Part shown: in pieces, positions 30,771-46,060 of the stretch | Layout of the letters: every line of letters starts with the position of its first letter | Position numbering within the stretch: position 1 is the first letter of the stretch | Origin: a virus | Reading direction: 5' to 3' (one strand) | Virus record (IMG/VR): IMGVR_UViG_3300010354_000151 | Span: 1-46,060 of that record | DNA length: 46,060 nucleotides | Position numbers and translations under genes: made by a program | Notes under the pieces: model-generated | What the model saw: the letters and a program-made list of their open reading frames with translations, nothing else | Database searches by the model: none | Told to the model about the DNA's origin: nothing

Positions 30771-30923
30771 ATGAGTAAAATTATCCCAAAATCACAGCAG
30801 AAACCTGAAAAAATTGCTGAAAAGAAACCCAACGAAGTTGGTGGGTTTTATTTTTCCTCACACATCAAAATATTTGATCCCAATACAAAGCAAGTTTTAG
30901 TTCAAAAAAGAGGCGATAACTAA
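30771..30923 (+). CDS. Small protein resembling the N-terminus of the next gene product
   Basis: A 50-residue frame. The first half is Lys/Gln/Pro-rich and likely flexible (PKSQQKPEKIAEKKPNEVGG). The second half, with HIKIFDPNTKQVLVQKR, resembles residues ~12-30 of the downstream protein, FLKIYDPNNGEIFVDKK. It ends just where that similarity stops. The stop overlaps the next start as TAATG, so the pair should be co-translated. The function is unknown; a small baseplate or fibre-attachment factor that mimics or competes with the neighbour's N-terminal strand is possible. It fills what would otherwise be a 168-base gap. Confidence 0.65.
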   Translation: MSKIIPKSQQKPEKIAEKKPNEVGGFYFSSHIKIFDPNTKQVLVQKRGDN

Positions 30924-31573: not shown

Positions 31574-32818
31574 ATGGCATATACAATTGTTAAGAGCGAC
31601 GGTACAGTTCTAACAACAATACCCGATGGTACTATTAACACTACAAGTACTCCATTAGGCCTACCAGGTCGTAATTATGCTGGTTATGGTCAATCGTTAG
31701 ACACTAACTTTACACACATGGTAGAAAACTTCGCAGATTCTACCCCTCCAGCGAACCCACTGCGTGGTCAACTTTGGTATGATACTAACAATAACGCATT
31801 AAAAGTTTGTCCATCTGATGGTGAAACTAACGCAAGTGCATGGTCTACATTGACCTCAACATCAAGCGGTGGTGCAACAACCTTTAGCGCAGTAACAGTA
31901 ACTGGCAATTTAACTGCTAATAATATTACAGCAACTAATAATAGTAATGCCAATGCAGCATCATTTAACTACTTAACCGTTTCTGCAAGTGCAAACATTG
32001 CTGATGGCAATATAACCACTGCAAATATTGGCACATTGAGAACTCAGGCAATTACTACTGGCGGAACAACGACTGCAGGTACGTTAACTGGAACTTGGAC
32101 TGCAACCGGTACCGGAACAGCAAACGGTGTTGCTGGAACAACAGTGTGGATGAATACTGGTAATTTAGTTATTTCAGGTGCAGGGACTTTAGGTATTAAA
32201 GTTGCAAATGCTAACTGTATCATGGATTTATCTGGTAACCCAATTACATACGCTGGAACATATAACGACAGTAATGTTCAAGCTTATTTACCAACATACA
32301 CTGGTAATTTAGGCGTCGTAGGTGGAAGCTCAGTGTTTAATGGTAGAACAATTTCTACCGGAGCTAATACAACTACAGGTAGCATTACTGGTAACTGGAC
32401 ATTGACTTCCGGATCAAGACTCAACGCAACATATGCTGACTTGGCAGAACGCTTTGAAGCAGACCGCTATTATGATGCCGGAACTGTTGTTGAACTAGGT
32501 GGTGAAAAAGAAATTACTGCTGTTCAATATGAATTAAGCGATGATGTATTTGGTGTTGTATCTGAAACAGCCGGATATTTGATGAATGCAGGCGCCGGCG
32601 ACAACAGCACACATCCTCCAATTGCTGTGGGCGGAAGAGTAAAAGTAAAAGTAACCGGTAAAGTTAAGAAAGGCCAACGATTAGTTAGTGCAGGTAATGG
32701 TATGGCCCGTGCAGCAGAACAAGGTGAAGCTACAGCATTTAATATAATTGGACGATCATTAGAAAATAAAAATTCAAATGACATTGGCACAGTTGAAGCA
32801 TTTGTTAAAATAAATTAA
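31574..32818 (+). CDS. Tail fibre-like protein
   Basis: A 414-residue protein. The N-terminal ~95 residues (LGLPGRNYAGYGQSLDTNF, HMVENFADSTPPANPLRGQLWYD) are a module that I know from appendage proteins of marine T4-like phages and probably anchors to the baseplate. The middle (residues ~95-285) is rich in Thr, Gly, Asn and Ala with short periodic strands (NLTANNITATNN), typical of a fibrous trimeric shaft. Residues ~286-414 start with ADLAERFEADRYYDAGTVVELGG and form a compact beta domain also seen at the ends of other phage fibres, resembling domains annotated as peptidase G2/autoproteolytic, although I see no proven catalytic residues. It has a good promoter-like box and Shine-Dalgarno. 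The receptor is unknown. Confidence 0.65.
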   Translation: MAYTIVKSDGTVLTTIPDGTINTTSTPLGLPGRNYAGYGQSLDTNFTHMVENFADSTPPANPLRGQLWYDTNNNALKVCPSDGETNASAWSTLTSTSSGGATTFSAVTVTGNLTANNITATNNSNANAASFNYLTVSASANIADGNITTANIGTLRTQAITTGGTTTAGTLTGTWTATGTGTANGVAGTTVWMNTGNLVISGAGTLGIKVANANCIMDLSGNPITYAGTYNDSNVQAYLPTYTGNLGVVGGSSVFNGRTISTGANTTTGSITGNWTLTSGSRLNATYADLAERFEADRYYDAGTVVELGGEKEITAVQYELSDDVFGVVSETAGYLMNAGAGDNSTHPPIAVGGRVKVKVTGKVKKGQRLVSAGNGMARAAEQGEATAFNIIGRSLENKNSNDIGTVEAFVKIN

Positions 32819-32827
32819 GGATAAAAG

Positions 32828-33778
32828 ATGAGTTACGCACAATATGGTTTAATTGAAGCAGCAGACTTCAACAATCTTGTTGGTGGTAACCCAGTCACCA
32901 CAGCTAACAGACTTAATACTGTATGGGCTACAGGTGGAACAAATGCAGGTTATGGACAGACACCAGTTGCAAACGTGGCAATAGGAACTACAGTTACTGC
33001 TACTAATTGGGCATCATTAGTTAACAATACGTCTAATGCGGCACAGCATCAAGGATCTTCAATAACGTCTGTTACAGCACCGGCAACAGGAAATACTGTT
33101 GCTTTTTTAAGTGCTGTTCCGACCAATTTGTCTACAATATACACAAACAGATTAAATGCAGCTAGTCAAGGCTCAACCAGTTCAAATACTGCAACATTTG
33201 GTTCTGCATGGAGTTCGGCAATAACTTTCACTCATACTGTTACTTTTAGTTCAGGTGATGCTGCAAGATATTTCTTTAACGCTGGCGGACAGTTAGCAGT
33301 TACTTGCTCACATCCATCAGGTACTGGAATAAATTTATTGTTTAACGGGTTGGCTAGTAATGTGGGAACAATTGTTTTAAGTAGCCCAACATCAGGGGCG
33401 GTTACAATAGCCGGAACTAGTTACAATGGCGTAACTAAGATCGGCGGTGGCGGAAACTCCCCCACAATATCAACTAATTCAGGTTATTTTGGATTGTCTA
33501 CAGCCAATACAACATTGTTTACGCAAACAGCAAGTACAGGTCCATCTGGATACCTAAGCACTTTCATACGAGTAATTGCCGCGACTAACGGAACACAGGG
33601 TTCAAATGGTGACGCCGGCTCTGTAATTACATTGTACACTCTTTGGGATGAAATTCCTAATGGACTGTCAGTATCTTCGGGTTCAGCTACAACTGTAACT
33701 ATAAGACCTCCGAGCACTACTTATATTTCAAGTACTTGGGGATCTCCTACAGTGTCTGGTACTGTATCCGGTTCATAA
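32828..33778 (+). CDS. Structural appendage protein, fibre-associated
   Basis: A 316-residue protein of low charge, very rich in Thr, Ser, Ala, Asn and Gly. The N-terminus (LIEAADFNNLVG, TTANRLNTVWATGG, GYGQTPVANVAIGTTVTATNW) is a pattern I have seen in uncharacterised virion proteins of aquatic phages. The second half is predicted beta-rich (ARYFFNAGGQLAVTCSHPSG, then repeated GT/ST strands). There is no signal peptide or enzyme motif. It follows the fibre gene after 9 bases with GGAT as a weak ribosome binding site, so it is probably co-transcribed and may be a fibre tip or short fibre. It is the last structural-looking gene before the accessory cassette. Confidence 0.55.
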   Translation: MSYAQYGLIEAADFNNLVGGNPVTTANRLNTVWATGGTNAGYGQTPVANVAIGTTVTATNWASLVNNTSNAAQHQGSSITSVTAPATGNTVAFLSAVPTNLSTIYTNRLNAASQGSTSSNTATFGSAWSSAITFTHTVTFSSGDAARYFFNAGGQLAVTCSHPSGTGINLLFNGLASNVGTIVLSSPTSGAVTIAGTSYNGVTKIGGGGNSPTISTNSGYFGLSTANTTLFTQTASTGPSGYLSTFIRVIAATNGTQGSNGDAGSVITLYTLWDEIPNGLSVSSGSATTVTIRPPSTTYISSTWGSPTVSGTVSGS

Positions 33779-33796: not shown

Positions 33797-33831
33797 ATCC
33801 ATCTAAATACTTTTAGGAGTTTTAGATGGAT
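33797..33831 (+). promoter_or_regulatory. Stem-loop over the start codon of the first cassette gene
   Basis: Arms at 33797-33807 and 33821-33831 are a perfect 11-base inverted repeat separated by 13 bases. The Shine-Dalgarno AGGAG (33815-33819) is in the loop and the ATG (33826) lies in the right arm. The left arm overlaps a CTAAATA box at 33803-33809, a late-promoter variant. If transcripts start upstream, the hairpin could mask the start codon; if they start at this box, the left arm would be missing and the start would be open. Confidence 0.6.
33803..33809 (+). promoter_or_regulatory. CTAAATA late-promoter-like box heading the accessory cassette
   Basis: It sits in the only sizeable gap (47 bases) between the structural genes and the following overlapping gene string, so it is the natural candidate for the cassette promoter. 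Expected initiation would be about 33815, giving a very short leader. Confidence 0.4.
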
Positions 33832-34131
33832 ACCACAACCTTAATTTTAGAGGCAAAAGCTAGATTTAATCACAACGCAACCAAGGCATACCTAAAAGAA
33901 AAATATGAAAGTAAATTAATAATAGCAGAACAAGGTGGTTTGTGGAAGGCAGACAATATTACCATTACATTACTATCAGCATTAACTAATGAACGGGTAG
34001 TTTTAATTGACACTTTTGGCAATCCAGTTGAAGTTAACCGTCAAGAATTATTTGATTCTTTGTCTAACACATATAACTCTGTGATGCAAGAATGGCATGC
34101 AGAATGGAAAAATTTAGAAGGCAATAGATGA
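33826..34131 (+). CDS. Small uncharacterised protein
   Basis: A 101-residue, mixed alpha/beta, moderately charged protein that I do not recognise by name. It has an N-terminal helix (TLILEAKARFNHNATKAYLKE), a central strand pair (KADNITITLLSAL, RVVLIDTFGNPVEV) and a C-terminal amphipathic helix (QELFDSLSNTYNSVMQEWHA). There is no cysteine, signal peptide or membrane segment. Its start codon lies inside a strong inverted repeat, and it overlaps the next gene by ATGA. Its placement between fibre genes and glycosyltransferases would suit a fibre chaperone or a regulatory factor, but this is a guess. Confidence 0.6.
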   Translation: MDTTTLILEAKARFNHNATKAYLKEKYESKLIIAEQGGLWKADNITITLLSALTNERVVLIDTFGNPVEVNRQELFDSLSNTYNSVMQEWHAEWKNLEGNR

Positions 34132-34931
34132 TACGTGGAGCCTTATTATTTGCGTTTAACAGTGGCCGTTACGATTATTATAGAATGGCAGAAGAGACTG
34201 CAAAAAGAATCAACCACTTCTTAAACTTACCAGTCACTATTGTCACAGATGAAAAATCACGGACATCATCTACCGGATATAACTTTGACAAAATAATCAT
34301 TACAGAACCGGACAAAAATAATTTGAGAGATTGGGGTGTATGGATTAACAAGGGTAGATACCAAGCCTTTGAATTAAGCCCATATGATGAAACAATCTTA
34401 GTTGATACAGACTACATGATTAATTCAAACAAGTTATTGAAAACCTTTGATGTATCAATTGACTTTTGTTGCCATGACACTACAAGTTTTTTAATGTATC
34501 CCGATGCACCTCAAGAAATTTTAAGCGCCTACAGTTTTAAGACACTATGGGCAACTGTTGTTACTTTCAGAAAAACCAAAAGAGCAAAACAAATATTTGA
34601 ATGTTTAGAAATGGTTCAGAAAAACTATGACCATTATGCAAATATTCATAGTTTTGTGGGAGGTGTATACAGAAATGATTATGCACTGACACTAGCACTT
34701 AGAATTGCTAATGGTCATACTGTTTTACCCGGGGATATTATTCCTTGGAATTTAGTTCATGTTGGTAAAAAAACATCAGTTTATAAAAATTCTGATCTAC
34801 CATTTAATACAGAATATACTGTACTATTTGATAATTGGCGCCGCGGCAAAATCCGTAAAGAATATGCGATTATAAAAGATATGGACTTTCATGTCATGAA
34901 TAAAGATAACTTTATGGAGCTTATTCTATGA
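34128..34931 (+). CDS. Glycosyltransferase-like protein (GT-A type) 1
   Basis: A 267-residue protein. The N-terminus (GALLFAFNSGRYDYYRMAEE, ...LNLPVTIVTDE) looks like a nucleotide-sugar transferase entry strand-helix. SPYDETILVDTDYM contains a D-T-D motif at residues 93-95, placed as the metal-binding DxD of GT-A enzymes. Later HSFVGGVYRNDYALTLALRI and LPGDIIPWNLVHVG fit the acceptor side of this fold. It shares the layout x-SPY-x-x-T-I-x-(L/V)-(D/E)-x-D with the next gene, so the two are probably paralogs. It overlaps both neighbours by ATGA. No membrane segment was seen, so it should be cytosolic. Sugar and acceptor are unknown; late virion or host-glycan modification is inferred from context. 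Confidence 0.6.
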   Translation: MIRGALLFAFNSGRYDYYRMAEETAKRINHFLNLPVTIVTDEKSRTSSTGYNFDKIIITEPDKNNLRDWGVWINKGRYQAFELSPYDETILVDTDYMINSNKLLKTFDVSIDFCCHDTTSFLMYPDAPQEILSAYSFKTLWATVVTFRKTKRAKQIFECLEMVQKNYDHYANIHSFVGGVYRNDYALTLALRIANGHTVLPGDIIPWNLVHVGKKTSVYKNSDLPFNTEYTVLFDNWRRGKIRKEYAIIKDMDFHVMNKDNFMELIL

Positions 34932-35674
34932 ACAAGGGTTTTGTAATACTTGCACAAAATACAATAACAACAGATTATGTTAAGTGCGCGGAAGTTCTAG
35001 AGGCTAGCATCAAAAAAGTTATGCCCGAGTCTAATGTTACAATCATCACAAAATTGCCATATGGAGATTTGGCACCCAATAGTGACTGGAAACTAATCAA
35101 CGATTGGCAAGTTTATGAGGCAAGTCCCTATGAATACACAATCAAACTAGAAGCTGATATGTATGTGCCCACTTCTATTGAGTATTGGTGGGATATCCTT
35201 AAAAATCATGATTTAGTTGTAAGCACTACAATTAGAAATTTTAAACAAGAAATATCATCGTCTAGGGCGTACCGTAAGTTTATAGATGAAAATAAATTAC
35301 CTGATGTTTATAATGCTATCACTTACTTTAGAAAAAGCGAAAAGTCTAAAAAGTTTTTCGGTTTAGTTAGAAACATTTTTGAAAACTGGGACGAATACAA
35401 GAAAGTATTAAAGTGTAATGTTGATGAAGAAGCAACTACCGATTGGGTATATGCATTGGCATGTCATATTATGGGCGAAGAAAATACAACATTACCTGCA
35501 TTCACCCAAATGAGTATGGTGCATATGAAGCAGTTTATAAATGACTTACCCACTGAAAACTGGACAGATACATTAGTGTATGAAATTTTATCTGATCAAT
35601 TTAGAATCAATACAGTTCCACAAATGTATCCGGTACACTATCATGTTAAATCTTTTGCAAATAAATTTATATGA
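34928..35674 (+). CDS. Glycosyltransferase-like protein (GT-A type) 2
   Basis: A 248-residue protein that begins GFVILAQN, followed by YVKCAEVLEASIKKVMPESN and NVTIITKLPYGD, a Rossmann-like start. EASPYEYTIKLEADMYVPTS holds E-A-D at residues 75-77 where a DxD-type motif would be, and aligns by eye with SPYDETILVDTDYM of the gene before. The rest (NAITYFRKSEKSKKFFGLVR, WVYALACHIMGEE) is helical. The altered first acid (E instead of D) could still bind metal. ATGA overlaps on both sides indicate coupled translation. The likely role is a cytosolic glycosyltransferase working with its paralog; an inactive partner subunit is an alternative. Confidence 0.55.
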   Translation: MNKGFVILAQNTITTDYVKCAEVLEASIKKVMPESNVTIITKLPYGDLAPNSDWKLINDWQVYEASPYEYTIKLEADMYVPTSIEYWWDILKNHDLVVSTTIRNFKQEISSSRAYRKFIDENKLPDVYNAITYFRKSEKSKKFFGLVRNIFENWDEYKKVLKCNVDEEATTDWVYALACHIMGEENTTLPAFTQMSMVHMKQFINDLPTENWTDTLVYEILSDQFRINTVPQMYPVHYHVKSFANKFI

Positions 35675-36012
35675 ATAACGATGAAATGATTGTTATTTGG
35701 GAAGCTCCCCAGATTCAGCCTCCCGAATTCAGACTATATTATGATGACACAGGTAAAGTAGTGTGCTATACTTGTGAAAAGTTACCTGGTAATTTTATTG
35801 TCGTTGACGCTCAGACATTTGCACAAGCAAGACCGGATGTTCGTGTTATTGATGGGAAAATTTCTACAGTGAATCCCAATGCAATAATATCCAAATTAAT
35901 GCCCAACACTGTGGGACAAAAATGTGCAAAAGAAGATATAAGCATTGTAGTTGACGATAGTTATTCGGGTGATGTAACACACTGGAAGTTGCAAACATAT
36001 GAATACAGATGA
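35671..36012 (+). CDS. Small uncharacterised protein
   Basis: A 113-residue protein. It contains PPEFRLYYDDTGKVVCYTCE, LPGNFIVVDAQTFAQARPDV, RVIDGKIS and the C-terminal ISIVVDDSYSGDVTHWKLQT. The regular strand-turn-strand pattern predicts a small all-beta or alpha/beta domain. Two cysteines form a C-Y-T-C pair that could bind metal, although a third and fourth ligand were not identified. I do not recognise the family with certainty, but similar short proteins occur near structural genes of aquatic phages. It overlaps the upstream gene by ATGA and the downstream gene by 14 bases. Confidence 0.55.
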   Translation: MNNDEMIVIWEAPQIQPPEFRLYYDDTGKVVCYTCEKLPGNFIVVDAQTFAQARPDVRVIDGKISTVNPNAIISKLMPNTVGQKCAKEDISIVVDDSYSGDVTHWKLQTYEYR

Positions 36013-36958
36013 TGACATTGTTGATATCGTAGATTTGGATTGCATTTATCTTAGCTACGATGAACCGCAAAAAGAAGAATTTTGGCTCAAGATTAAAAAC
36101 ATGGTGCCTTGGGCAAAAAGAGTTGATGGGGTCAAAGGAAGTGATGCAGCACACAAAGCTGCCGGGGAAGCAAGCGACACAGAAAGGTTTATTCTTATTG
36201 ACGGCGACAACATGCCGGATGAATCATTCTTTAACTTGCAACTTGACTTTACTGACAAAGATCCTAACTATAAACTTGCGCAATATCGTTGGAAAGCTAT
36301 CAACGCAATCAATGGTCTACGATATGGCAATGGTGGCATGAGTAGTTGGACAAAAACTTATGTTGCTAACATGAAAACTCATGAGGCTCAAACTGAGGGT
36401 GATGTAACACGCATTGCAGACTTTTGTTTAGATAGCACTGACAATTTGTATTGGGCCATGTATGATTGCTATTCAACTACATATCCTAACTATACTCCAT
36501 TTCAAGCTTGGCGTGCAGGTTTTAGAGAAGGTGTAAAGATGTGCCTAGATCGTGGCGCAGTACCCACAGTAGAACACTTTAAAGAAACAGTTTCAAGTAG
36601 AAATCTTAATAACTTGACAATATGGCAGAATGTTGGCAGTGATGTAGATAATGGATATTGGGCAATATATGGCGCACGATTAGGTACATTCTTAACGATG
36701 TTAAGTGACTGGGATCATACTAATGTGCAATGGTTTGATAATTACCCTGAACTATGGAAAGAATATGGTGAAGGCAAAGATCCTAAAGATGCAGCCGAGC
36801 AAATTGGATCACAATTAGAAAATAAACTAGGGCTACCTATCTGTACATTAAGCCCCGAGCAAAGCAAATTCTTTAAACGACACTATGGTGCCGATAAGTA
36901 TAACAGAGGTCTGTTAGTTAAAGAAATGGATGTTGTTCGCCAAATTGAAGGATGGTAA
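35999..36958 (+). CDS. Glycosyltransferase-like protein (GT-A type) 3
   Basis: A 319-residue protein. The start (DIVDLDCIYLSYDEPQKEEF, then MVPWAKRVDGVKGSDAAHKA) resembles a nucleotide-sugar binding fold, and TERFILIDGDNMPDESF carries D-G-D at residues 68-70 as the candidate DxD metal site. Further on, RYGNGGMSSWTKTY and the Trp/Tyr-rich segment to about residue 240 may form the acceptor site; the last ~60 residues are charged and helical. It is not obviously paralogous to the two GT-A candidates upstream. The 14-base overlap with the preceding gene suggests re-initiation. No membrane anchor was seen. The substrate is unknown. Confidence 0.55.
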   Translation: MNTDDDIVDIVDLDCIYLSYDEPQKEEFWLKIKNMVPWAKRVDGVKGSDAAHKAAGEASDTERFILIDGDNMPDESFFNLQLDFTDKDPNYKLAQYRWKAINAINGLRYGNGGMSSWTKTYVANMKTHEAQTEGDVTRIADFCLDSTDNLYWAMYDCYSTTYPNYTPFQAWRAGFREGVKMCLDRGAVPTVEHFKETVSSRNLNNLTIWQNVGSDVDNGYWAIYGARLGTFLTMLSDWDHTNVQWFDNYPELWKEYGEGKDPKDAAEQIGSQLENKLGLPICTLSPEQSKFFKRHYGADKYNRGLLVKEMDVVRQIEGW

Positions 36959-38529
36959 TGAGTAAGAAAAAATTAAATGATGTTATTTGGATTAGAAATA
37001 AAAGTAACTATATTGATTCAAGTAATGAAAATCTAGATAAAGTAAAAGATTTACTGGGTGAGACTGGTAAAGGATTTTGTCTAGCCAAATTCACTCAAGT
37101 TACAATGCATTTGGGAACAGGGATGACGCATTCTTGTCACCATCCTAGCCCACATAAAATTCCATTAGAAGAAATTGAAAAAAATCCGGCAGCATTGTTC
37201 AATACGAACCGCCTTAAAAAGGCCCGTAGAGAAATGTTTGAAAATGAAAGACCAAGCGAATGTGATTACTGTTGGAGAGTTGAAGATACCAATGGATATA
37301 GTGACAGATTCTTTAAAAGCCTAGAGCCTTGGGCGTTAAATGAGCATGACAGAATTGTTAATACTGATCCAGAAGATAATATAGTACCAACCTACTTAGA
37401 AGTTGATTTCAGTAATGTTTGTAATTTTGCCTGCACATATTGCGGACCTGAATATAGTTCAAAATGGGTGGAGAATTTAAAGCAGCATGGGCCTATTAAG
37501 TTATTAGACAATACAAAGTATTCTCAATGGAGTCATGGCTGGCAAGATTTAGATAGCCTCACCTATAAGAGTAGTGAGTTTAATCCGTATGTAGATGCGT
37601 TTTGGAAATGGTTCCCTGAAGTTTACAAGCAGTTAAAGGTATATCGCATTACTGGCGGCGAACCTTTGCTAAGTAAAGAAACCTTTCGCAGTATAGATTG
37701 GTTTATTGATAACCCTAATCCTGAGCTTGAATTTAGCATTAACAGTAATCTAGGTGCTCCACAAAAGTTGTGGGATCAGTTTATAGAAAAGATTCAGATA
37801 CTCACAAACAACAAGTGTGTTAAAAGATTTACGGTATTTACTAGTGTAGACGGTTGGGGTGAAAGAGCCGAATATGCTCGTCCTGGATTAAATTTTGAAC
37901 TGTTTAAAACTAGATACGAGCAATTGCTTAAAATTGGAAATATTCGTGCAACCATAATGTGTACTTACAATATTTTCAGTGTCACTAGCATGAAGCAATT
38001 ATTAGAGTGGCAAGCTAATTTGAAATCAATTTATAATCCAGACATGGCATTGATTGACTTGGAAGAGCAATTTGGGTACAGATTAGCAGATGGTGACTAT
38101 ACGCAACGACAGCGCAAAGAACGGTGTCAAAATCATCATGGTCTAGTTGGTTTAGATGTTCCTTATTTAAGAAGCCCGGGCTTTTTAGATGCTCACTATA
38201 TTGACAAAAATTTGATACAAGATTACATGATTCCTAGCTTTAATTATATGATAAGATTTGCTAGTGGAAATGTTAATGGTATGGGCCTACATCAGGGCTT
38301 TGAAGATTATGAAATAGAAAAATTCAAACGCATTGTTATTGAGGCAATGAATTTTAACAAAATTCATGAAGAAGATCATGAAACCATTCTATTACACAGA
38401 GCAAGATTTTTTGATTTTGTAAATGAAATTGACAAGAGACACAACAGAAACTTTGTTAAAACTTTCCCTGAAATGGCAGAGTTCTATAATAAGTGTAAAA
38501 TGGCAAAAGAAAAACTAATACCCAATTAA
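36958..38529 (+). CDS. Radical SAM protein with N-terminal auxiliary cysteines, copy 1
   Basis: The ATG at 36958 overlaps the previous stop (TAATG) and is preferred to the in-frame ATG two codons upstream; this gives 523 residues. The radical SAM motif CNFACTYC (C155, C159, C162; CX3CX2C) binds the 4Fe-4S cluster that cleaves S-adenosylmethionine. ITGGEP (from residue 231) is the expected SAM-contact motif. Before the core, C41, C60, C102 and C105 (GFCLAK, SCHHP, CDYC-W) give four cysteines, which suggests an auxiliary cluster as in twitch- or SPASM-type enzymes but placed at the N-terminus. The C-terminus ends with a RHNRNFVKTFPE motif shared with the next gene. The substrate is unknown; modification of a sugar, lipid or protein is possible. 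Confidence 0.8.
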   Translation: MSKKKLNDVIWIRNKSNYIDSSNENLDKVKDLLGETGKGFCLAKFTQVTMHLGTGMTHSCHHPSPHKIPLEEIEKNPAALFNTNRLKKARREMFENERPSECDYCWRVEDTNGYSDRFFKSLEPWALNEHDRIVNTDPEDNIVPTYLEVDFSNVCNFACTYCGPEYSSKWVENLKQHGPIKLLDNTKYSQWSHGWQDLDSLTYKSSEFNPYVDAFWKWFPEVYKQLKVYRITGGEPLLSKETFRSIDWFIDNPNPELEFSINSNLGAPQKLWDQFIEKIQILTNNKCVKRFTVFTSVDGWGERAEYARPGLNFELFKTRYEQLLKIGNIRATIMCTYNIFSVTSMKQLLEWQANLKSIYNPDMALIDLEEQFGYRLADGDYTQRQRKERCQNHHGLVGLDVPYLRSPGFLDAHYIDKNLIQDYMIPSFNYMIRFASGNVNGMGLHQGFEDYEIEKFKRIVIEAMNFNKIHEEDHETILLHRARFFDFVNEIDKRHNRNFVKTFPEMAEFYNKCKMAKEKLIPN

Positions 38530-38530
38530 T

Positions 38531-39967
38531 ATGTCAACAAATTTGATCCAATGGCGCAAAAATGTTTTAGATGCTATCAGCCCTAGCTTTTGCGCAGCTA
38601 AGTGGTATAATGCTTCTATTTTCTTAGGATCAGGTTACACTGGGTCTTGTCACCTGCCCTTACCACATTTAATGGATAAGGATCAGGTCGCACAGAATCC
38701 ATCGGCATTGCACAACACAGATCATAAGAAAAATGTAAGAAAAATGATGCTAGAAGGTGTACGACCGGCAGAATGTAACTACTGCTGGAAAGTTGAAGGC
38801 ATACAAAGAGATAATGTTAGTGATCGGGTTTATAAAAGCATATTTTACAAATATGAAGATATTGTAAAGTTAAAAGAACTGCCTTGGGACCAAGATGTTT
38901 TGTTAAAGACTTTGGAGATAAGTTTTGACAGACAATGTAACTTTGCATGCAGTTACTGTAATGCAGGTTATAGCACGACTTGGGCACAGGATTTAGAAAA
39001 GAACGGTGCATACCAAAACTTTATTGCACCCGGTGGCGGTGGTGGGGCATATCAAACAGATGGAAGTTGGGCTGAAGCATACGGCAAACATTTAGATGAA
39101 AATCCATATGTAGATGCCTTTTTTAAATGGTGGCCTGAATTGTCGCAATCCTTAATGGAATTAAGAATTACAGGCGGCGAAGCAACTGTGAGTCAGAACT
39201 TTTGGCGATTTGTTGATAAAATGCATGAGTTCGCATCACCCAACATGAACTTTGCGGTAAACACCAATTTGGGAATGTCAGAGAAGGCATTGCAAAAGTT
39301 GATAGATGTTACAAAAACTTTACCTGTTAAAGAAGTAAGAATATTTACAAGCAATGAAAGTTACGGCAAACATGCCGAGTATATACGAGATGGTTTAGAT
39401 TATGTAAAGTGGCGAGAGAACATGGTTAAGTTGCTTGATAATGCCAATTTAAGCATGCTAACAATTATGATGACTATTAATAATTTGTGCTTATTCAGCA
39501 TCACAGAATTTATGGATGACATGCTTAAATTAAAGGCAAAGTATGGTACAGTTAAACCATTGTTAGATTTAAACATTTTAAGATGGCCTGGCATGATGAG
39601 TCCTGTAACTCTACCGGATGATATAAAAAGTACTTTACACGCAAAATTATTAAAATGGTTTAAAAAGCACAAACAAAGCAAATTGCTATCTGAGGGAGAG
39701 AAGGCGCAAATTCAAAGATTACTTGATTATATTGAAGTAGTAAAAACCGGTCATACTTTTGTGACTGACGACAAAGCCTTATTATTTCATGATTTTAAAA
39801 GTTTCTTTACTCAGTATGATGAAAGAAGAAATAAAAATTTAGTTGAAACCTTTCCTGAGTTAAAAGATTGGTACGAATCTATAGAGTTAAATAAAACCTT
39901 TGAAATAAAACCACTGCACAATATAGGTATAAGCCACCATGAAGAAGGGGAGTATAAAGACGAATGA
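38531..39967 (+). CDS. Radical SAM protein with N-terminal auxiliary cysteines, copy 2
   Basis: A 478-residue paralog of the gene before it, one base after its stop. It keeps the same framework: C21, C40, C82 and C85 (FCAAKWY, SCHLP, CNYC-W) at the N-terminus, CNFACSYC (C136, C140, C143) for the catalytic cluster, ITGGEA from residue 213, and a C-terminal RRNKNLVETFPE motif. Between the core and the GGE motif there is a Gly-rich insert (APGGGGGAY) absent from copy 1, and the rest differs substantially, so the pair is not recent. All eleven expected features for activity in the two copies are intact. Two different substrates or two steps on one substrate are more likely than redundancy. It overlaps the next gene by ATGA. 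Confidence 0.8.
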   Translation: MSTNLIQWRKNVLDAISPSFCAAKWYNASIFLGSGYTGSCHLPLPHLMDKDQVAQNPSALHNTDHKKNVRKMMLEGVRPAECNYCWKVEGIQRDNVSDRVYKSIFYKYEDIVKLKELPWDQDVLLKTLEISFDRQCNFACSYCNAGYSTTWAQDLEKNGAYQNFIAPGGGGGAYQTDGSWAEAYGKHLDENPYVDAFFKWWPELSQSLMELRITGGEATVSQNFWRFVDKMHEFASPNMNFAVNTNLGMSEKALQKLIDVTKTLPVKEVRIFTSNESYGKHAEYIRDGLDYVKWRENMVKLLDNANLSMLTIMMTINNLCLFSITEFMDDMLKLKAKYGTVKPLLDLNILRWPGMMSPVTLPDDIKSTLHAKLLKWFKKHKQSKLLSEGEKAQIQRLLDYIEVVKTGHTFVTDDKALLFHDFKSFFTQYDERRNKNLVETFPELKDWYESIELNKTFEIKPLHNIGISHHEEGEYKDE

Positions 39968-40638
39968 TTTCAGAGATTTATGCGTATGGCTGTAGTTTTG
40001 TGTACGGTGATGGGGTCAAAAAAGAGGATGCCTGGCCGCAGCTTTTGGGTAATAAATTTAATGTTCCCGTCTTTAATCGCGGGGAAAGAGGTGGCTCTAA
40101 CAAATTTTCTTTAATTCGCTTCTTTGAAGATTTAAAAAAATTTACACCAGACACCTTCATTATTTTTTCTTGGACAGGGTTCACCCGAACTATGTTCTAT
40201 AGTAGAAAATTTAATAATTGGAATATGTACCTACCTGGACATGTACCATTAAATGAAGATAACACAATTTCTGAAGATGGCGAAAATATGAAGTATTTTT
40301 ATGCCAATATATATTCTGATTACGATTCTCTAACTACTCTTTATCAACAACAATTGTTGTTGCAAAACTTTTTAGAAAATAATAAATTAAATTATGCTTT
40401 TATGAATGCAGTAGATGATAATTTATTATTAAGGTATAGATTTTGGGAAAATGATTCATTAACTAAAAACCTGCACAGTGGAATAAAGAAAGAAAAGTAT
40501 TTCTTAGGATACAACAATTCACTTAATAAAATTGTGTGCAAGGATATGAAATTAATTGCCCCAGATGGGTATCATCCCAGTGAAGGCGGGCATAAATGGA
40601 TCGCTGATAATTTATATAATTTTATAAACGCACAATGA
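39964..40638 (+). CDS. SGNH-hydrolase-like protein 1
   Basis: A 224-residue protein with the SGNH/GDSL blocks in order: YAYGCSFVYGDG with the nucleophile candidate S11, GERGGSNKF (residues 40-48) with G and N for the oxyanion hole, and DGYHPSEGGHKW (residues 201-212) with D201 and H204 as the DxxH pair. No signal peptide is present, so it should act in the cytoplasm. SGNH proteins hydrolyse or transfer acyl groups, including O-acetyl groups on sugars. In this setting a carbohydrate O-acyl esterase or transferase is a plausible role. It overlaps both neighbours by ATGA. Confidence 0.7.
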   Translation: MISEIYAYGCSFVYGDGVKKEDAWPQLLGNKFNVPVFNRGERGGSNKFSLIRFFEDLKKFTPDTFIIFSWTGFTRTMFYSRKFNNWNMYLPGHVPLNEDNTISEDGENMKYFYANIYSDYDSLTTLYQQQLLLQNFLENNKLNYAFMNAVDDNLLLRYRFWENDSLTKNLHSGIKKEKYFLGYNNSLNKIVCKDMKLIAPDGYHPSEGGHKWIADNLYNFINAQ

Positions 40639-41444
40639 AAACACGATTATTTGCATTTGGTTGCAGCATGACCAAATATGTATATGGCACCTGGGCTGAC
40701 TTTTTATCAGCAAATTTTGACGAATACTATAACTATGGTCGGTCTGGATCAGATATGCGACTTATTAGCAATCGTCTAATAGAAGCAGACACTAAGTTGA
40801 ATTTTAATTCAGAAACAGATTATGTAGTTGTAATGCTTACAGGCATTGGTAGATTTTCTTATATGAAATCTGATAGCCTACAAACTCACGGGGATCTGGT
40901 AGTACATGCGGCAAGTAATCCAGGTAACAAAGATGTAGTTTGGATTGTTGATAATATTTGGTCTGAAAAATGGCAAGTATATAATGCCTGGGTAGCCGCA
41001 CACACAATTAAAAAGATTTTAGATTTAAAGAAAATCAAACATAAAATTTTATTAGGACTTGACTATGACTGGTATTTAACTAACACAAAAGAATTATCTA
41101 ATGACGATATATTCAAAGTTAGTGACATGATTTATAGTATTGCAGACGATCCATTGTCACTAACGACTTTTTTTTCAGATTTAGATCAAATTGAAAATAA
41201 AGAAAAAACTCAACAGTTTTGGAAAGATAAAAATAATTTTGACGGACATCCCTCACAATATGTGCATTATCAATATATGAAAAAAATGTTTCCGGAATTT
41301 AATACACCATTATCTGAAAAATTATTTTATTATTGTGAACAAATTAACATTAAAGATAGTCAACGAGAACAAGGTATAAAATTTTATGATCTTTTTAGTA
41401 AAAAATATGACAAATCAATCTACTTTAGGCCATTTGGGGAATAA
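40635..41444 (+). CDS. SGNH-hydrolase-like protein 2
   Basis: A 269-residue relative of the gene before it. It begins LFAFGCSMTKYVYGTWADFL with S11 at the nucleophile place, then YYNYGRSGSD (residues 31-40), where block II would be, and FDGHPSQYVHYQYM with D203 and H205. The D-H spacing is DxH here and not DxxH as in copy 1, and the block III Asn is not obvious, so activity is less certain. No signal peptide. It could be a diverged acyl esterase/transferase or a non-catalytic partner of copy 1. Confidence 0.6.
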   Translation: MKTRLFAFGCSMTKYVYGTWADFLSANFDEYYNYGRSGSDMRLISNRLIEADTKLNFNSETDYVVVMLTGIGRFSYMKSDSLQTHGDLVVHAASNPGNKDVVWIVDNIWSEKWQVYNAWVAAHTIKKILDLKKIKHKILLGLDYDWYLTNTKELSNDDIFKVSDMIYSIADDPLSLTTFFSDLDQIENKEKTQQFWKDKNNFDGHPSQYVHYQYMKKMFPEFNTPLSEKLFYYCEQINIKDSQREQGIKFYDLFSKKYDKSIYFRPFGE

Positions 41445-41446
41445 TC

Positions 41447-42862
41447 ATGAGAGTTAAAATTCCCCTATTTTACGATTATGTATTTCCGGCTTATGTTATT
41501 CCTAATTGTATGAAAATGGATTTTGTTTTGATCAATTATATTCACAGTCAACATAGTAACAGAAGTAACGGAAATGATTTGTTTATGTCAAATCAAAGTA
41601 ACGATTTATTTCAAAAAATATTCGGAGATAGTTTAGGGAATGGTCATTGGCCAGCATGCTGGAATTCTGACTCACAGCTTAGAACAGGAAGCCTACGAGA
41701 CTATATTGAAATTGATTCAACATCCTTGTTTATAGGTAAAAAACAATATAATAAGTATTTGTATCCTGTTAGTATGACGCCATACATTGATGATTTTACC
41801 GGGGACACGTGCACTGGTAGCAAACTCAATGGTGAGTATTTTTGGAAATATATGTCACATGAAGCTCTTACTGACGCCAGACAAGGTAGGGCTTTTATTG
41901 TTCTTGACTACTTACAAGAAAACGAAGTTCCAAAATACATTTATGAAAATTTACACCGTGGTTTACGAAAAAGCGGTATTTCCCCATCGCAAGTGTTTTT
42001 ATTGTTTAACACATTTAATGGTGCAGATGTTTATAAAGAATGGTTTTCTGAAGAGGAGAGAATGTTAAATGTAGTTAATTTTCCCTACATGATTTTAAAT
42101 TCGTCATTTCATTACGGTGAAAATAAACATATAAAAACATTGAATAGAGAGGATTTTCTATCTTCTAAAAATCAGCTAAGACCTAAACATTTCTTGTTTA
42201 AGATTCGTAGACCCAGAGACCATAGACAAGTATTATTAGCTCAATTGTATAATGATGGGTATTTAAATAAGGGTAATTGGTCTTGCCTACAAAAATTAAA
42301 CCATGATATTAATCATTTGAACCTAACCCTAACAAATTTTGGATTCAATAAAATTGAACCAGAAAAAATAATGGAATTACATAACGAGCTTCCTAAAACC
42401 TTAAGTGATGAGGTCAATGAAGATTTTTACTCATTAGGCGGCTGGGCAGATGTACCTAACAGTTATCTTAGTAGTTATTTGTATATCGCCACAGAAACAT
42501 ACATGGATTTATCCAACAAATCCTTAACTGAGAAGGTATTCAAGCCCATCGCACATTTTATGCCCTTTGTGTTTGCATCGTGGCCAGGTTCGCTAAAATT
42601 GTTACGAGAACTGGGTTTTAAAACTTTTTCTCCGTTCATTGATGAAAGCTATGATAATGAATCAAATAACAGTATTAGACTGCAAAAGATATACCAAGAA
42701 ATAAAACGTTTGTGTGATATGCCTATCCAAGAACTACATAATTGGTATTGGTCTATGGAAGATATATTGATGCACAATCAGAACCATTTAGTTAATTTTT
42801 ACAAAAATAATCCATACTCAAAAAATCTTACAAACATCCTTAGAGATAAATTATATTCATGA
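41447..42862 (+). CDS. Glycosyltransferase-like protein with C-terminal LTEK/DESYD domain, copy 1
   Basis: A 471-residue protein. The first ~260 residues are not recognised. From KHFLFKIRRPRDHRQVLLAQ on, it shares an architecture with the protein at 44012-45451: a basic R-x-x-R/H motif, then ETYMD...SLTEKVFKPIAHFMPFVF, WPGSLKLLRELGFKTF, DESYDNE and HNWYWSMEDILMHNQNHL. The (T/S)EK-x-x-(K/R)P-x-x-x-x-x-PFV pattern is typical of donor-nucleotide sites in fucosyltransferase- or exostosin-like GT-B proteins, known also from phage genomes. It starts two bases after the previous stop and overlaps the RmlC-like gene by ATGA. The catalytic assignment is by pattern only. Confidence 0.55.
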   Translation: MRVKIPLFYDYVFPAYVIPNCMKMDFVLINYIHSQHSNRSNGNDLFMSNQSNDLFQKIFGDSLGNGHWPACWNSDSQLRTGSLRDYIEIDSTSLFIGKKQYNKYLYPVSMTPYIDDFTGDTCTGSKLNGEYFWKYMSHEALTDARQGRAFIVLDYLQENEVPKYIYENLHRGLRKSGISPSQVFLLFNTFNGADVYKEWFSEEERMLNVVNFPYMILNSSFHYGENKHIKTLNREDFLSSKNQLRPKHFLFKIRRPRDHRQVLLAQLYNDGYLNKGNWSCLQKLNHDINHLNLTLTNFGFNKIEPEKIMELHNELPKTLSDEVNEDFYSLGGWADVPNSYLSSYLYIATETYMDLSNKSLTEKVFKPIAHFMPFVFASWPGSLKLLRELGFKTFSPFIDESYDNESNNSIRLQKIYQEIKRLCDMPIQELHNWYWSMEDILMHNQNHLVNFYKNNPYSKNLTNILRDKLYS

Positions 42863-43404
42863 ACTACAAATTAAAAAAATGGCAAGATTTTGAAACATCT
42901 TACCTTAGCACATTTGGTAAGGAAGTTCCTATCTATTCGCCTTCCGTCTTTCATGAATATCGTGGAGAAATTTTTACAACCTACCATGATGAGTTGCATC
43001 CTGTACATTCGGTATTACCAAAAAAATTGCATTTTCACAGTAGATTTAGCAAGTCTTATAAAAATGTACTTCGTGGCCTACACTATGATACTAAAACATA
43101 TAAGTTGGTACAAGCATTAGTTGGTGACATATATTTGGTAGTGTTGGATGTAAGAGAAGGATCAGAGACATATGGAAAATATGAATCTTATATCTTATCT
43201 GAAAAGCACAGGCATCAAGTTTTAATACCGCCGGGATTCGCCAATGGCCATTATGCATTGACTGATTGCATCTTTCATTATTATCTATTCTATGAAGGTG
43301 AGTACTATGATGTGAAGGATCAGGGAGTTATAAAATTTAATGATTCTAGATTTAATCTAGAGTGGCCCACCACAACGCCCTTATTACAAGAACGGGACAA
43401 ATAA
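42859..43404 (+). CDS. dTDP-4-dehydrorhamnose 3,5-epimerase-like sugar epimerase (RmlC family)
   Basis: A 181-residue cupin of the usual RmlC length. It has the family motifs in order: NVLRGLHYD (H75, candidate catalytic base), KLVQALVGDIYLVVLDVREG (K82 and the beta-strand core), SETYGKYESYILSEKH, LIPPGFANGHYAL (residues 123-134, where FAHG is usual) and DSRFNLEWP near the end with D162 at the family DP-x-x-x-I-x-WP position. Tyr149/150 (EYYDVKDQG) is the candidate proton donor. These enzymes epimerise C3 and C5 of NDP-4-keto-6-deoxy sugars; a C3-only variant is possible. No RmlA, B or D is visible in the window, although an NAD-dependent epimerase starts downstream. The host may supply the 4-keto sugar. 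Confidence 0.82.
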   Translation: MNYKLKKWQDFETSYLSTFGKEVPIYSPSVFHEYRGEIFTTYHDELHPVHSVLPKKLHFHSRFSKSYKNVLRGLHYDTKTYKLVQALVGDIYLVVLDVREGSETYGKYESYILSEKHRHQVLIPPGFANGHYALTDCIFHYYLFYEGEYYDVKDQGVIKFNDSRFNLEWPTTTPLLQERDK

Positions 43405-43410
43405 ACAGTT

Positions 43411-44040
43411 ATGATTAAAAACTTGCAAAATTATCCAATAGTTAGAGATATTGGATTTACTGAAAATGATCTTATTAACTTTGAACTTAAGATCATAGAC
43501 CATTGGGAAAATGCTAAAATCAGAGGCCCGGTACATTTGAGTAATGGTAACGAAAGTCCACTGATTGAAATTTTTAAAAGAGTAAACAAAAACGATTGGG
43601 TTTTTAGTACTTGGAGATCACATTATCACGCACTTTTAAAAGGTCTTGATACTAGTTGGCTTGAAGAAGAAATACTTAAAGGAAAATCAATTACGATATG
43701 CAATCATCAAGAAAAGTTTTATTCGTCTGCTATCGTGGCATCAACCTTATCTATAGCACTGGGTGTAGCTCAATCAATTAAATTAGATAATAAACAAGAA
43801 AAGGTCTGGTGTTTCATCGGTGATATGTGTTTTGAAACTGGTGCATTTTACGAAGTTCATAAGTATGCTAGAAATTTTGATTTACCTTTATACTTTGTTG
43901 TTGAAGATAATGGCATTTCAACTTACACCCCGACAGTTAAAACATGGAATGTGCAACGTGACATACCCAATGATGTAATTTACTACACATACAAATCAAA
44001 ATACCCGCATTATGGCTCTGGTAAATGGATCGCATTTTAA
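43411..44040 (+). CDS. Thiamine-diphosphate-dependent E1-alpha-like subunit, short form
   Basis: A 209-residue protein. WVFSTWRSHYHALLKGLD (residues 63-80) corresponds to the Y/W-R-x-H-x-H-A-L-x-x-G stretch of E1 alpha subunits. GDMCFETGAFYEVHKYARNF then VVEDNGIST gives the GD-x28-N thiamine-diphosphate motif (G137, D138, N167). Standard E1 alpha has ~320-360 residues, so the last third is missing; the ending YPHYGSGKWIAF looks like a proper C-terminus and not a frameshift scar. E1 enzymes need a beta (pyrimidine-binding) partner, which is not seen here. In a glycan cassette it may belong to a C-C bond-forming or dehydrating enzyme for a branched or acyl-modified sugar. It overlaps the next gene by 29 bases. 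Confidence 0.7.
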   Translation: MIKNLQNYPIVRDIGFTENDLINFELKIIDHWENAKIRGPVHLSNGNESPLIEIFKRVNKNDWVFSTWRSHYHALLKGLDTSWLEEEILKGKSITICNHQEKFYSSAIVASTLSIALGVAQSIKLDNKQEKVWCFIGDMCFETGAFYEVHKYARNFDLPLYFVVEDNGISTYTPTVKTWNVQRDIPNDVIYYTYKSKYPHYGSGKWIAF

Positions 44041-45451
44041 GTTTGTTTACACAAGTTGGTTAAAAACTTCCCACGGCAATTACCCCATTGCCAATGGTAT
44101 CCATCCAGAGGGCATTAACAAATACTACGAATTTTACAATGAAACTATTCAAATAGGATTCGGCAGTCAAGATAATTTAGAAAAAAAAATACTTGAAAAA
44201 TATCCTGCATATGAAAATTTTTTCATGTTGGGGCATTCTTTGTTAATGACTTATTTGGAAGAATTTTTTCCAACGTCATGTTTTATTGGGGAAGATAAAA
44301 TAAAAGACGATGATTGTGCCTATTTCTATCCTATTGAAACAAACAAGGGTAATTACGTATTATATAATAATTATCAGGTTAATGTTGATGGCAGTGATAC
44401 TGAATGTTCTTTTACGGATAGCATACCAGAAAAAATAATTTCACTATTAAGAACAAACAAAATTAGACTATTAATTTGTGGAATTCAAGATCCTTGTCAT
44501 CATGATAGGCACTTAGAATTTTTTATGTCAAATTTAGAAAAAGTTGGCATACCCAAAAATAATCCAATATTCATTGCCGGGAATAAGCAACTTGATTCTG
44601 AATACAATACGGTGACTGGTATTTTGGCACTATATGAGGGTGGAAAATTATTCAGTCGGTACCCACGACAGACACAATTGGGATACATATCTGATTTAGT
44701 TAGAGAGCAAGAATTAACCGGTGTACTCAGAACTAAACGTTTTTTATGCTTTAACCGGCATTATGGAAAAAGCCACAGGATTTATTTGGCTTATCTATAC
44801 TTAAAGCATAAACTATACGAAAACAGTTATTTTAGTTTTTTAGTTATAAACGACATCAATAACATTGCTAATAATTTTTACAACATAACAAATATTTTGG
44901 ACGATTTAGATCAACTTAATATTCACAAATATATTGATGACTTAAAATCTAGAGTTCCAATTCAATTGGATACCCAGCATTTGTCATATAAAGAATTGTC
45001 CGGATTTGGTACAGTAGACAATTACAATAAAGATTTTTATAGTAGCACATATGTTCATATTGTAAGTGAAACATGTATGAACAACGAAAATTTTACTCCT
45101 TTCTTTTCAGAAAAAACAGTAAGACCTTTTATGAATTTGCAACCTTTTGTATATTTTGGGGATTACCATGCCTTAAAAACGTTAAAAGATTTGGGATTTA
45201 AAACCTTTCACCCCTTCATTGACGAGTCATACGATGACGAACCTGATCCATTAAAGAGAATGAAATTAGCAGGGGAGCAGGTTAAACAACTAAATAATAT
45301 GCCTGTAAGTCAACTTCACGACTGGTATTACTCAATAACAGATATATTGGTTCACAATCAAAAACATCTCCAAACGTTTAATCATTTTGATGTTTTACAT
45401 CAGGCTTTAAAAGACGCCGAGGCAATTTATAAAAATGGATTTAAAAAGTAA
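44012..45451 (+). CDS. Glycosyltransferase-like protein with C-terminal SEK/DESYD domain, copy 2
   Basis: A 479-residue protein that shares its last ~240 residues with the protein at 41447-42862: RFLCFNRHYGKSHRIYLAYL, then HIVSETCMN...FFSEKTVRPFMNLQPFVYFG, LKDLGFKTFHPFIDESYDDE and HDWYYSITDILVHNQKHL. The N-terminal ~230 residues are unrelated by eye and carry a Rossmann-like IRLLICGIQDPCHHDRHLEF segment. A GT-B-like enzyme with a donor site in the shared C-terminal part is the best guess. Its ATG lies inside the previous gene with no good Shine-Dalgarno, so translation is probably coupled; a later in-frame TTG is an alternative start. It overlaps the next gene by 17 bases. Confidence 0.55.
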   Translation: MALVNGSHFKFVYTSWLKTSHGNYPIANGIHPEGINKYYEFYNETIQIGFGSQDNLEKKILEKYPAYENFFMLGHSLLMTYLEEFFPTSCFIGEDKIKDDDCAYFYPIETNKGNYVLYNNYQVNVDGSDTECSFTDSIPEKIISLLRTNKIRLLICGIQDPCHHDRHLEFFMSNLEKVGIPKNNPIFIAGNKQLDSEYNTVTGILALYEGGKLFSRYPRQTQLGYISDLVREQELTGVLRTKRFLCFNRHYGKSHRIYLAYLYLKHKLYENSYFSFLVINDINNIANNFYNITNILDDLDQLNIHKYIDDLKSRVPIQLDTQHLSYKELSGFGTVDNYNKDFYSSTYVHIVSETCMNNENFTPFFSEKTVRPFMNLQPFVYFGDYHALKTLKDLGFKTFHPFIDESYDDEPDPLKRMKLAGEQVKQLNNMPVSQLHDWYYSITDILVHNQKHLQTFNHFDVLHQALKDAEAIYKNGFKK

Positions 45452-46060
45452 AAATATTATCGTAACTGGAGCAAACGGATTGGTTGGACTACCAACAGTT
45501 GAAAAATTATTAAATGAAAATGTTAGCAAAATTTACGCAGTTGACTTGCGGTTTAATCAAGAATTAATCGCATTACAACAGTTAAATCCTGATATTATTG
45601 AATTAGTTCAAACTGATTTGTGCTATTTGACCAACTGCGAGAACCTGTTTAAAAATAAAAATATACATGTTGTATTGCACTTAGCAGGTATCAAGGGCTC
45701 ACCCCAGAGAACAAAAACATCGCCGGCAGATTATATGTTTCCTATGCTAATGTTTAATACGAATATTTTTAAAGCAGCATTTGAAGCAAATGTTGAATGG
45801 CTAGTATACATGTCAAGTGTGGGCGTATATGCTCCGGCAGATGTGATGGTTGAAGATACTGTTTGGGAAACAATGCCTAGCAAAAATGATTGGCATCCGG
45901 GTTGGGCAAAACGCATAGGAGAGTTGGCGTTAGATGCTCTAAAGATTCAGTATAATTTTGATAGATATACTATCATTCGTCCCTCTAACATATATGGAAA
46001 GAATGACAACTTCGCACAAGATGCTACAGTAATAAGTTCAAATATTTGGAAACTATTTAA
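45435..46060 (+). CDS. NAD-dependent sugar epimerase/dehydratase (3' partial)
   Basis: The gene starts at the ATG at 45435 and runs off the window after ~208 residues. It is an extended SDR protein: IIVTGANGLVG gives the GxxGxxG NAD(P) loop (G12, G15, G18), VDLRF the acidic residue after beta-2, VLHLAGIKG the N-A-G-type strand, YMSSVGVY (S127/S128, Y132) the serine region, and IIRPSNIYG the substrate-side motif. The lysine of YxxxK is K159, but the position four residues before it is Pro155 (HPGWAKR), so the usual catalytic Tyr is absent there. Within this cassette it should work on a nucleotide-activated sugar, possibly together with the RmlC-like epimerase. Confidence 0.75.
   Translation, partial: MDLKSKNIIVTGANGLVGLPTVEKLLNENVSKIYAVDLRFNQELIALQQLNPDIIELVQTDLCYLTNCENLFKNKNIHVVLHLAGIKGSPQRTKTSPADYMFPMLMFNTNIFKAAFEANVEWLVYMSSVGVYAPADVMVEDTVWETMPSKNDWHPGWAKRIGELALDALKIQYNFDRYTIIRPSNIYGKNDNFAQDATVISSNIWKLF

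Follow-up and report, generated by a model that had tools for sequence, protein, structure and literature searches.

Directly behind the tail fibre genes of a T4-superfamily jumbo phage, represented by environmental DNA records only, the 46,060-base window (the whole stretch of DNA analysed here) carries a run of 14 ORFs, A to N (all on the + strand, 33826-46060), which comparison with related phages shows to consist of two layers of predicted genes. The conserved core comprises u_tf1-u_tf2-u_tf3, the small proteins A and D, three GT-A-like transferases (B, C and E) and at least one twitch radical SAM enzyme (F, G), the second layer is a recurrent, plug-in nucleotide-sugar module of K (epimerase), L (TPP PP-half), M (GT-B-like) and N (SDR). 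We read the cassette as a glycan island that accompanies the late fibre genes, with the phage's own fibre as its most likely acceptor, and give this explanation as a whole a probability of roughly 0.45. That the island makes and transfers a glycan is highly probable, and a virion fibre as its target falls just short of an even bet.

Integrity of the locus and its conserved core

The ORF positions bear out the initial annotation, which had described 14 co-directional genes after the fibres with overlaps or gaps of at most 6 bases (spacing of neighbours from A to N: -4, -4, -4, -14, -7, +1, -4, -4, +2, -4, +6, -29 and -17 bases); 47 bases lie between the end of the last fibre ORF (33778) and the start of A. 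Its four paralogue pairs (GT-A-like, radical SAM, SGNH and SEK/DESYD) are all real, the SGNH pair at profile level only, and its single RmlC-like (K), E1-alpha-like (L) and SDR (N) genes match those families (Pfam scores below), a third GT-A-like protein, E, had been overlooked. The independent IMG/VR contig G001 (88,986 bases), a fragment like the window itself, is collinear with window positions 109-46060 at 96.7% identity, and because this separate contig carries the same gene order an assembly join between phage and host can be ruled out. Recent import of the block from a bacterium was also rejected, as the cassette GC of 31-37% is inside the range of the window and phages carry the core unit in a fixed form. 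A scan for promoters and terminators gave matches not above chance, and the label 'late' is taken from position only.

Of the three genes upstream of the cassette, u_tf1 (30923..31543, +) is a virion-associated protein beside the fibres (phrog_11259, 229 bits) with relatives in 87 phage records (44-52% identity among the matches listed), and is conserved in cultured jumbo phages of the 121Q/GAP32/Atu_ph07 type. The fibre-like u_tf2 (31574..32818, +) contains a Peptidase_G2 (IMC autoproteolytic) domain (PF11962, 30 bits), and its PHROG matches are virion structural or tail fibre proteins. The proposed acceptor, the fibre-like u_tf3 (32828..33778, +), is rich in Ser and Thr (31% S+T, 4% charged residues), a composition shared by its homologues (n = 88; median S+T 29%, charged 6%) and distinct from that of the comparison set of unassigned ORFs in the same loci (12% and 22%); no conserved site for modification could be picked out in its sequence.

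In a scan anchored on E, 72 of 80 contigs share the same-strand order u_tf2-u_tf3-B-C-E, so the co-occurrence of homologues beside tail fibre genes that the initial annotation had suggested checking holds across relatives. A radical SAM gene lies downstream of E in 77 of the 79 contigs with E (directly adjacent in 48); in the two without it the contig stops at E or one gene later, and in the reciprocal scan anchored on F, E was present within 6 kb upstream in 50/80. Between the fibres and the transferases sits A (33826..34131, +), a small conserved protein and possible assembly factor present in 69/80 E-anchored loci, which had no match in family profile searches; the second small conserved protein, D (35671..36012, +), is present in 61/80. 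The GT-A-like transferase B (34128..34931, +) has an invariant DxDY (D93, D95 and Y96), and its paralogue C (34928..35674, +) also matches phrog_1903 (unknown function; E 2e-7). B and C share 20% identity (E 3e-7; profile-profile probability 99.6%, E 1.6e-24), their putative GT-A assignment being based on the invariant DxD of B, and no profile link joins B to E. The marker of the conserved unit is E (35999..36958, +), a candidate GT-A-fold transferase-like protein with invariant D(G/A)DN and YGNGG motifs, whose AF2 model (pLDDT 84) has PBCV-1 A064R (2p6w; E 1.5e-4, low TM of 0.3-0.4) as its top match among PDB folds, followed mainly by other GT-A structures. None of 50,697 annotated phage records matched the E family, and profile searches of PDB sequences with E, J/M and B returned nothing meaningful, with no solved relative of B.

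The core closes with F (36952..38529, +) and G (38531..39967, +), paralogous radical SAM enzymes with an N-terminal twitch domain (29% identity, E 1e-63) which score 298.5 and 288.5 bits against NF033640 (N_Twi_rSAM; curated cut-off 170 bits). In F, the CxxxCxxC cysteines C157/C161/C164 and the twitch cysteines C43/C62/C104/C107 are invariant across 19 sequences, and a GGE motif is located at 235-237. Some related phage records hold 10-17 radical SAM copies, up to 17 per phage. NF033640 was above its cut-off in 2/399 sampled Pseudomonadota genomes and in 15/15 phage records checked, the latter drawn from the E- and L-anchored scans and so not an unbiased rate; the family looks virus-rich, and the cassette is a likely context for it.

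The nucleotide-sugar module and accessory enzymes

K (42859..43404, +) is an RmlC-like 3,5-epimerase (PF00908, dTDP_sugar_isom, 117 bits) that scores 112.3 bits against the equivalog TIGR01221, under the cut-off of 155.75, and is by this measure a predicted member of the wider epimerase family, not RmlC itself. L (43411..44040, +) is an E1-alpha-like TPP subunit of 209 aa (E1_dh, 57 bits; pyruvate dehydrogenase E1-alpha in the PDB, E 1.8e-13) which reaches 85.6 bits against TIGR03182 (pyruvate dehydrogenase E1-alpha), under the cut-off of 393.85. A full-length E1-alpha has about 320 aa, and L corresponds to the TPP-binding (PP) half only; origin from a frameshifted E1-alpha was rejected since relatives are also about 209 aa. 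Catalytic-type residues of L are conserved across relatives, and the phage proteins form their own supported group apart from bacterial ones. N (45435..46058, +), an NAD-dependent epimerase/dehydratase (SDR; PF01370, 91 bits), is cut by the window end and is complete at 329 aa in L004/G001. Downstream of the window, near-identical phage sequence encodes two more SDRs and a TPP Pyr-half (E1-beta), the latter a 179-aa Transket_pyr-like ORF (G001 54305-54844; E 2.8e-5, below the Pfam cut-off). The near-identical phage further encodes an LpxH-like phosphoesterase, a GT4 and HldE-like functions on split genes.

Among 80 L-anchored loci K was found in 71, L in 78, N in 65, SDR2 in 64, SDR3 in 62 and the E1-beta half in 62, which points to a separate Pyr-domain partner encoded nearby. 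Fibre genes are often absent from the 10-kb flanks of these loci (u_tf3 is present in 9/80), and the sugar module on its own therefore lacks a fixed link to fibres. Its bacterial kin lie in polysaccharide clusters of SAR11, gammaproteobacterial, Chloroflexi and Parcubacteria genomes, where the E1-alpha and E1-beta halves adjoin in most and homologues of K, N and SDR2 occur in many.

Two further pairs flank or interrupt the module. H (39964..40638, +) is an SGNH/GDSL-type hydrolase or acyl transferase (DUF6071, 31.7 bits, cut-off 27; Lipase_GDSL weak, with Pfam GDSL scores under cut-off), and I (40635..41444, +) is a remote SGNH-type paralogue: BLAST between them is not significant (E 0.42), and their profiles match at 98.5% probability (E 2.6e-15). 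The block I Ser and C-terminal Asp-His pair of SGNH proteins are represented by the invariant S11 and H204 in H, and in I by S11 of an invariant GCS (9-11) with D203 and H205 of an invariant D203-x-H205-P206. J (41447..42862, +), of the uncharacterised SEK...DESYD family, and M (44012..45451, +) are putative GT-B-like glycosyltransferase paralogues sharing 42% identity over 133 aa (E 2e-27). Profile searches placed M in no sequence family; its AF2 model (pLDDT 88) finds almost only GT-B structures among the top 50 PDB matches (best E 6.4e-4, low TM of about 0.3-0.4). The suggestion that the pairs make two related sugars or serve two steps did not survive as a design rule, because copy numbers vary among the 80 L-anchored relatives (J/M 0-4, SGNH 0-4 and radical SAM 0-4 per locus).

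Proposed function and its rivals

Families, folds and conserved synteny all support the first annotation, a single run beside the fibres for making sugars, transferring them and editing acyl groups. N, SDR2, SDR3 and K would oxidise, epimerise and reduce an NDP-sugar, and L with the E1-beta half is predicted to form a complex active as a minimal TPP enzyme, which would probably transfer two carbons from a 2-oxo acid to a keto-sugar to give a branched sugar (a literature search for TPP-made branched nucleotide sugars found no matching paper). B, C, E, J and M may then transfer sugars, H and I may add or trim acyl groups, and F and G may alter the sugar or the peptide by radical chemistry. The presumed acceptor is the phage's own fibre, u_tf3 and perhaps u_tf2, modified in the cytoplasm; this choice is made because the cassette products, none of which contains a hydrophobic segment of the membrane-helix type, are encoded in the fibre run behind a low-charge protein of about 30% Ser+Thr.

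Editing of the host O-antigen is a close rival to fibre decoration, and we hold it plausible if somewhat doubtful that an O-antigen or core sugar is made and moved to a host lipid-linked glycan on the cytoplasmic face, altering receptors for superinfection exclusion or for release from debris. The kinship of the K-L-N-SDR-E1-beta module with bacterial surface-polysaccharide genes, and the HldE-like, GT4 and LpxH-like genes of near-identical phage, speak for it, and similar phage islands have been interpreted as host O-antigen editors (PMC7824862, PMC7029224). However, the cassette contains no flippase, polymerase or other membrane protein, it is the B-C-E-radical SAM unit and not the sugar module that is fixed to the fibre genes, and placement with virion genes would be odd timing for remodelling a doomed host.

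It is improbable that the twitch enzymes instead mature the protein, acting on fibre side chains or backbone (epimerisation, cross-links) with glycosylation secondary or separate. The radical SAM genes do adjoin fibre and glycosyltransferase genes and are amplified in some records, and in the cultured phages Phosso and Atu_ph07 the corresponding site is occupied by SPASM-type radical SAM genes, next to one for a virion-type protein that ends in a CHxSCHxSCH tail, but these radical SAM genes belong to another family, no conserved core motif or Cys-rich substrate tail was seen when looked for in u_tf3, A and D of the present group, and radical SAM genes also accompany the sugar genes (63/80 L-anchored loci). 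It is very improbable, finally, that the island produces a diffusible metabolite or serves to modify phage DNA: the carbamoyltransferase, SGNH and radical SAM genes are reminiscent of gene sets for secondary metabolites, and a comparable idea has been published for some cyanophage clusters (PMC7824862), yet none of the cassette families is of a nucleobase-modifying, NRPS/PKS or exporter type, and the core is tied to fibre genes.

Fibre decoration, our preferred reading, can be extended to a conserved virion-maturation system of uncultivated jumbo phages: the three GT-A-like enzymes, together with a twitch radical SAM array able to expand, would modify a Ser/Thr-rich fibre, fed by interchangeable sugar modules including a half-size TPP enzyme, so that receptor-binding surfaces are diversified chemically and not by sequence, an extension we consider unlikely. 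Host range of phages is usually ascribed to fibre sequence; a conserved, fibre-linked enzyme set found across many jumbo phages of aquatic origin suggests that virions (or the host surface) may commonly receive a further, chemical layer of decoration.

Comparison with known systems

Virion glycosylation in mycobacteriophages and PBCV-1 is not known to involve radical SAM enzymes or a comparable sugar-synthesis module. The likeness lies in virus-encoded glycosyltransferases decorating virion proteins, as in mycobacteriophage capsid and tail glycosylation (Freeman 2023, as cited in PMC12619734) and PBCV-1 A064R, a major-capsid glycosyltransferase which, as the best solved fold match of E, is a remote fold similarity only. 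Bacterial surface-polysaccharide clusters (SAR11 and others) likewise hold homologues of L, E1-beta, K, N and SDR2 together, and contain in addition a GHMP kinase, a GMD-like SDR and transketolase halves.

With glycosyltransferase and NDP-sugar genes by the fibres of a T4-superfamily phage, the cassette has the make-up of a host-recognition/polysaccharide island. The initial claim that it is not a described phage system stands in part: polysaccharide-synthesis islands of phages (PMC7824862), radical SAM cassettes in a fibre region (PMC7029224) and a T4-like genome with multiple radical SAM genes (PMC5332604) have been published, whereas the literature searched yielded no description of the fixed fibre-A-B-C-D-E-radical SAM unit. 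Polysaccharide-synthesis clusters of cyanophages and jumbo phages share paralogous SDRs, cupin isomerases and several glycosyltransferase families in one run, but the available text of that overview describes no fixed fibre link and the word 'radical' is absent from its main text (PMC7824862); the cyanophages S-SM2 and P-TIM68 encode one transketolase-type ORF of about 400 aa, where two half-subunits are present here. The 12 radical SAM genes of TARA_ERS488813_N000010, a T4-like marine genome, show the same amplification in an environmental phage, read in the accessible part of that paper as part of Fe-S metabolism with no link made to fibres or glycosyltransferases (PMC5332604). The host-recognition clusters of pelagimyophages, also T4-like aquatic phages, likewise combine glycosyltransferases with radical SAM cassettes around the fibre genes (PMC7029224); those clusters are called hypervariable, whereas the cassette described here keeps a fixed order in dozens of contigs and adds a TPP half-enzyme module.

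The gene run and a collinear contig

The 46,060-base window is a linear IMG/VR virus record in which no end repeats were found. T4-superfamily tail genes lie to the left of the cassette (33826-46060), comprising a gp25-like gene, a gp6-like baseplate wedge gene with matches in cultured jumbo phages (including Phosso, Atu_ph07, GAP32, 121Q and BF) and a 6,496-aa structural ORF; the latter is a single ORF (11264-30754) with the wedge gene on one side and fibre genes on the other. The 14-gene, one-direction run described in the initial annotation was recovered as 14 ORFs (A-N) after three fibre-type genes; neighbouring ORFs overlap by 4-29 bases or are separated by no more than 6. The second fibre-type gene, u_tf2 (31574-32818), is fibre-like and carries a Peptidase_G2 autoproteolytic (IMC) domain.

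An artefactual origin of the cassette was ruled out by an independent contig, G001 (88,986 bases), which matches window positions 109-46060 collinearly at 96.7% identity. Beyond the window, G001 encodes two SDRs (SDR2, SDR3), a 141-aa protein, SGNH3, an E1-beta-like Pyr half, SGNH4, a third radical SAM, a carbamoyltransferase, then a 1,885-aa protein (58402-64059), for which 53 of the searched loci encode relatives and a Pfam search gave no family over cut-off. Farther along are a Gram-negative porin and a phosphate-binding-type solute-binding protein (67400-69425; L087:7400-9425), a GT4 and a DegT aminotransferase, and HldE-like functions are split into kinase and nucleotidyltransferase.

A fibre-linked unit and radical SAM genes

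BLAST confirmed the proposed paralog pairs F/G (twitch radical SAM), J/M and B/C (GT-A-like), and profile comparison confirmed B/C and H/I (SGNH). E brings the GT-A-like proteins to three: it conserves DxDN and its model is of GT-A type, although profile comparison with B gave no link (6.6%). J and M belong to an uncharacterised family, many of whose members are viral and whose model matches GT-B enzymes; both fold assignments are only moderate because E-values were near 1e-4 and TM-scores low.

A scan for loci carrying E returned at least 600 stretches, 598 of them relatives; our counts come from the best 80 of at least 598 and therefore describe this group of closest relatives. C was present in 80/80, u_tf2 and u_tf3 in 79, E in 79, B in 73, A in 69 and D in 61 (A and D being small proteins), and the order u_tf2-u_tf3-B-C-E was kept on a single strand in 72/80. 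Radical SAM genes lay downstream in 77 of the 79 loci with E (48 directly adjacent), most commonly in 4-5 copies; in the other two the contig ended there or one gene later. When more distant cases were added by anchoring on F, E lay within 6 kb upstream in 50/80. Among 50,697 annotated phage records E and C had no match, and F a single weak one.

The twitch radical SAM family was over cut-off in 15/15 phage records, which is no unbiased rate because these came from E- and L-anchored loci, and in 2/399 genomes of a Pseudomonadota sample; one 320-kb record had 17 such genes, the highest number. Counting the twitch family or its kin, 10-17 genes per phage record occurred in G425 (320 kb), G003-G006, G010 and G011.

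At the position matching the cassette, cultured Phosso and Atu_ph07 encode radical SAM enzymes of the SPASM type together with a virion-type protein that ends in CHxSCHxSCHxSRSRR, and Burkholderia phage FLC6 and Pseudomonas phage DT01 are arranged similarly. In these four cultured phages the gene for this protein adjoins a cupin gene and SPASM-type radical SAM genes, after virion genes. The jumbo-phage protein bears CH-x-x-CH-x-x-CH-x-x-R-x-RR at its exact C-terminus, and a DNA pattern derived from this tail found 35 stretches in viral contigs, in 34 of which the tail terminates an ORF. The loci concerned are L296:19300-20220, L298:21098-21988, L299:9060-9620, L300:9025-9561 and L301-L335. This C-terminus is possibly a virion tail matured by radical SAM enzymes.

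The sugar module

Judged by its sequence, L corresponds to the half of E1-alpha that binds TPP; nearly all relatives have a length of ~209 aa, and a conserved PHYGxGKW motif closes the protein. In 80 L-anchored phage loci we found K (RmlC-like epimerase) in 71, M in 70, N (SDR) in 65, J in 65, SDR2 in 64, SDR3 in 62 and E1-beta in 62, with K upstream of L and at most two genes away in 64/78. L and E1-beta would together add a two-carbon unit, as the TPP family suggests. Most bacterial records have adjacent E1-alpha and E1-beta halves with K, N and SDR2 homologs; those with both halves also hold GHMP kinase-like and GT-like genes (named from sequence by eye). In the L tree, the phage rows sampled fall into a single supported group together with L104 and L105, with SAR11, gammaproteobacterial and Chloroflexi rows outside it. 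Radical SAM, J/M and SGNH genes suggest that four MAG records (L104, L105, L106 and L117), assigned among Pelagibacterales, Saccharibacteria, Flavobacteriales and Gammaproteobacteria, are misbinned phage contigs.

Target and known systems

We favour the virion as target (probability about 0.45), because the conserved unit is fixed to fibre genes, the fibre protein is Ser/Thr-rich (median 29% over 88 homologs vs 12% in unassigned ORFs) and the best fold match of E is a viral capsid glycosyltransferase; none of the cassette products is a membrane protein, which we also count for this reading. The cassette might instead modify the host surface, a close but less favoured alternative to which the kinship of the sugar module with polysaccharide genes lends support, as do readings in two published accounts (PMC7824862, PMC7029224).

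Those same accounts already describe phage glycan islands, as PMC7029224 and PMC5332604 do radical SAM-rich T4-like phages, and moraphages with four core GTs are also published (PMC12619734). In cyanophages S-SM2 and P-TIM68, the first half of a ~400-aa ORF (L119:12001-13209, L120:10049-11194) is related to L, and this ORF adjoins alcohol dehydrogenase and heptose-type genes.
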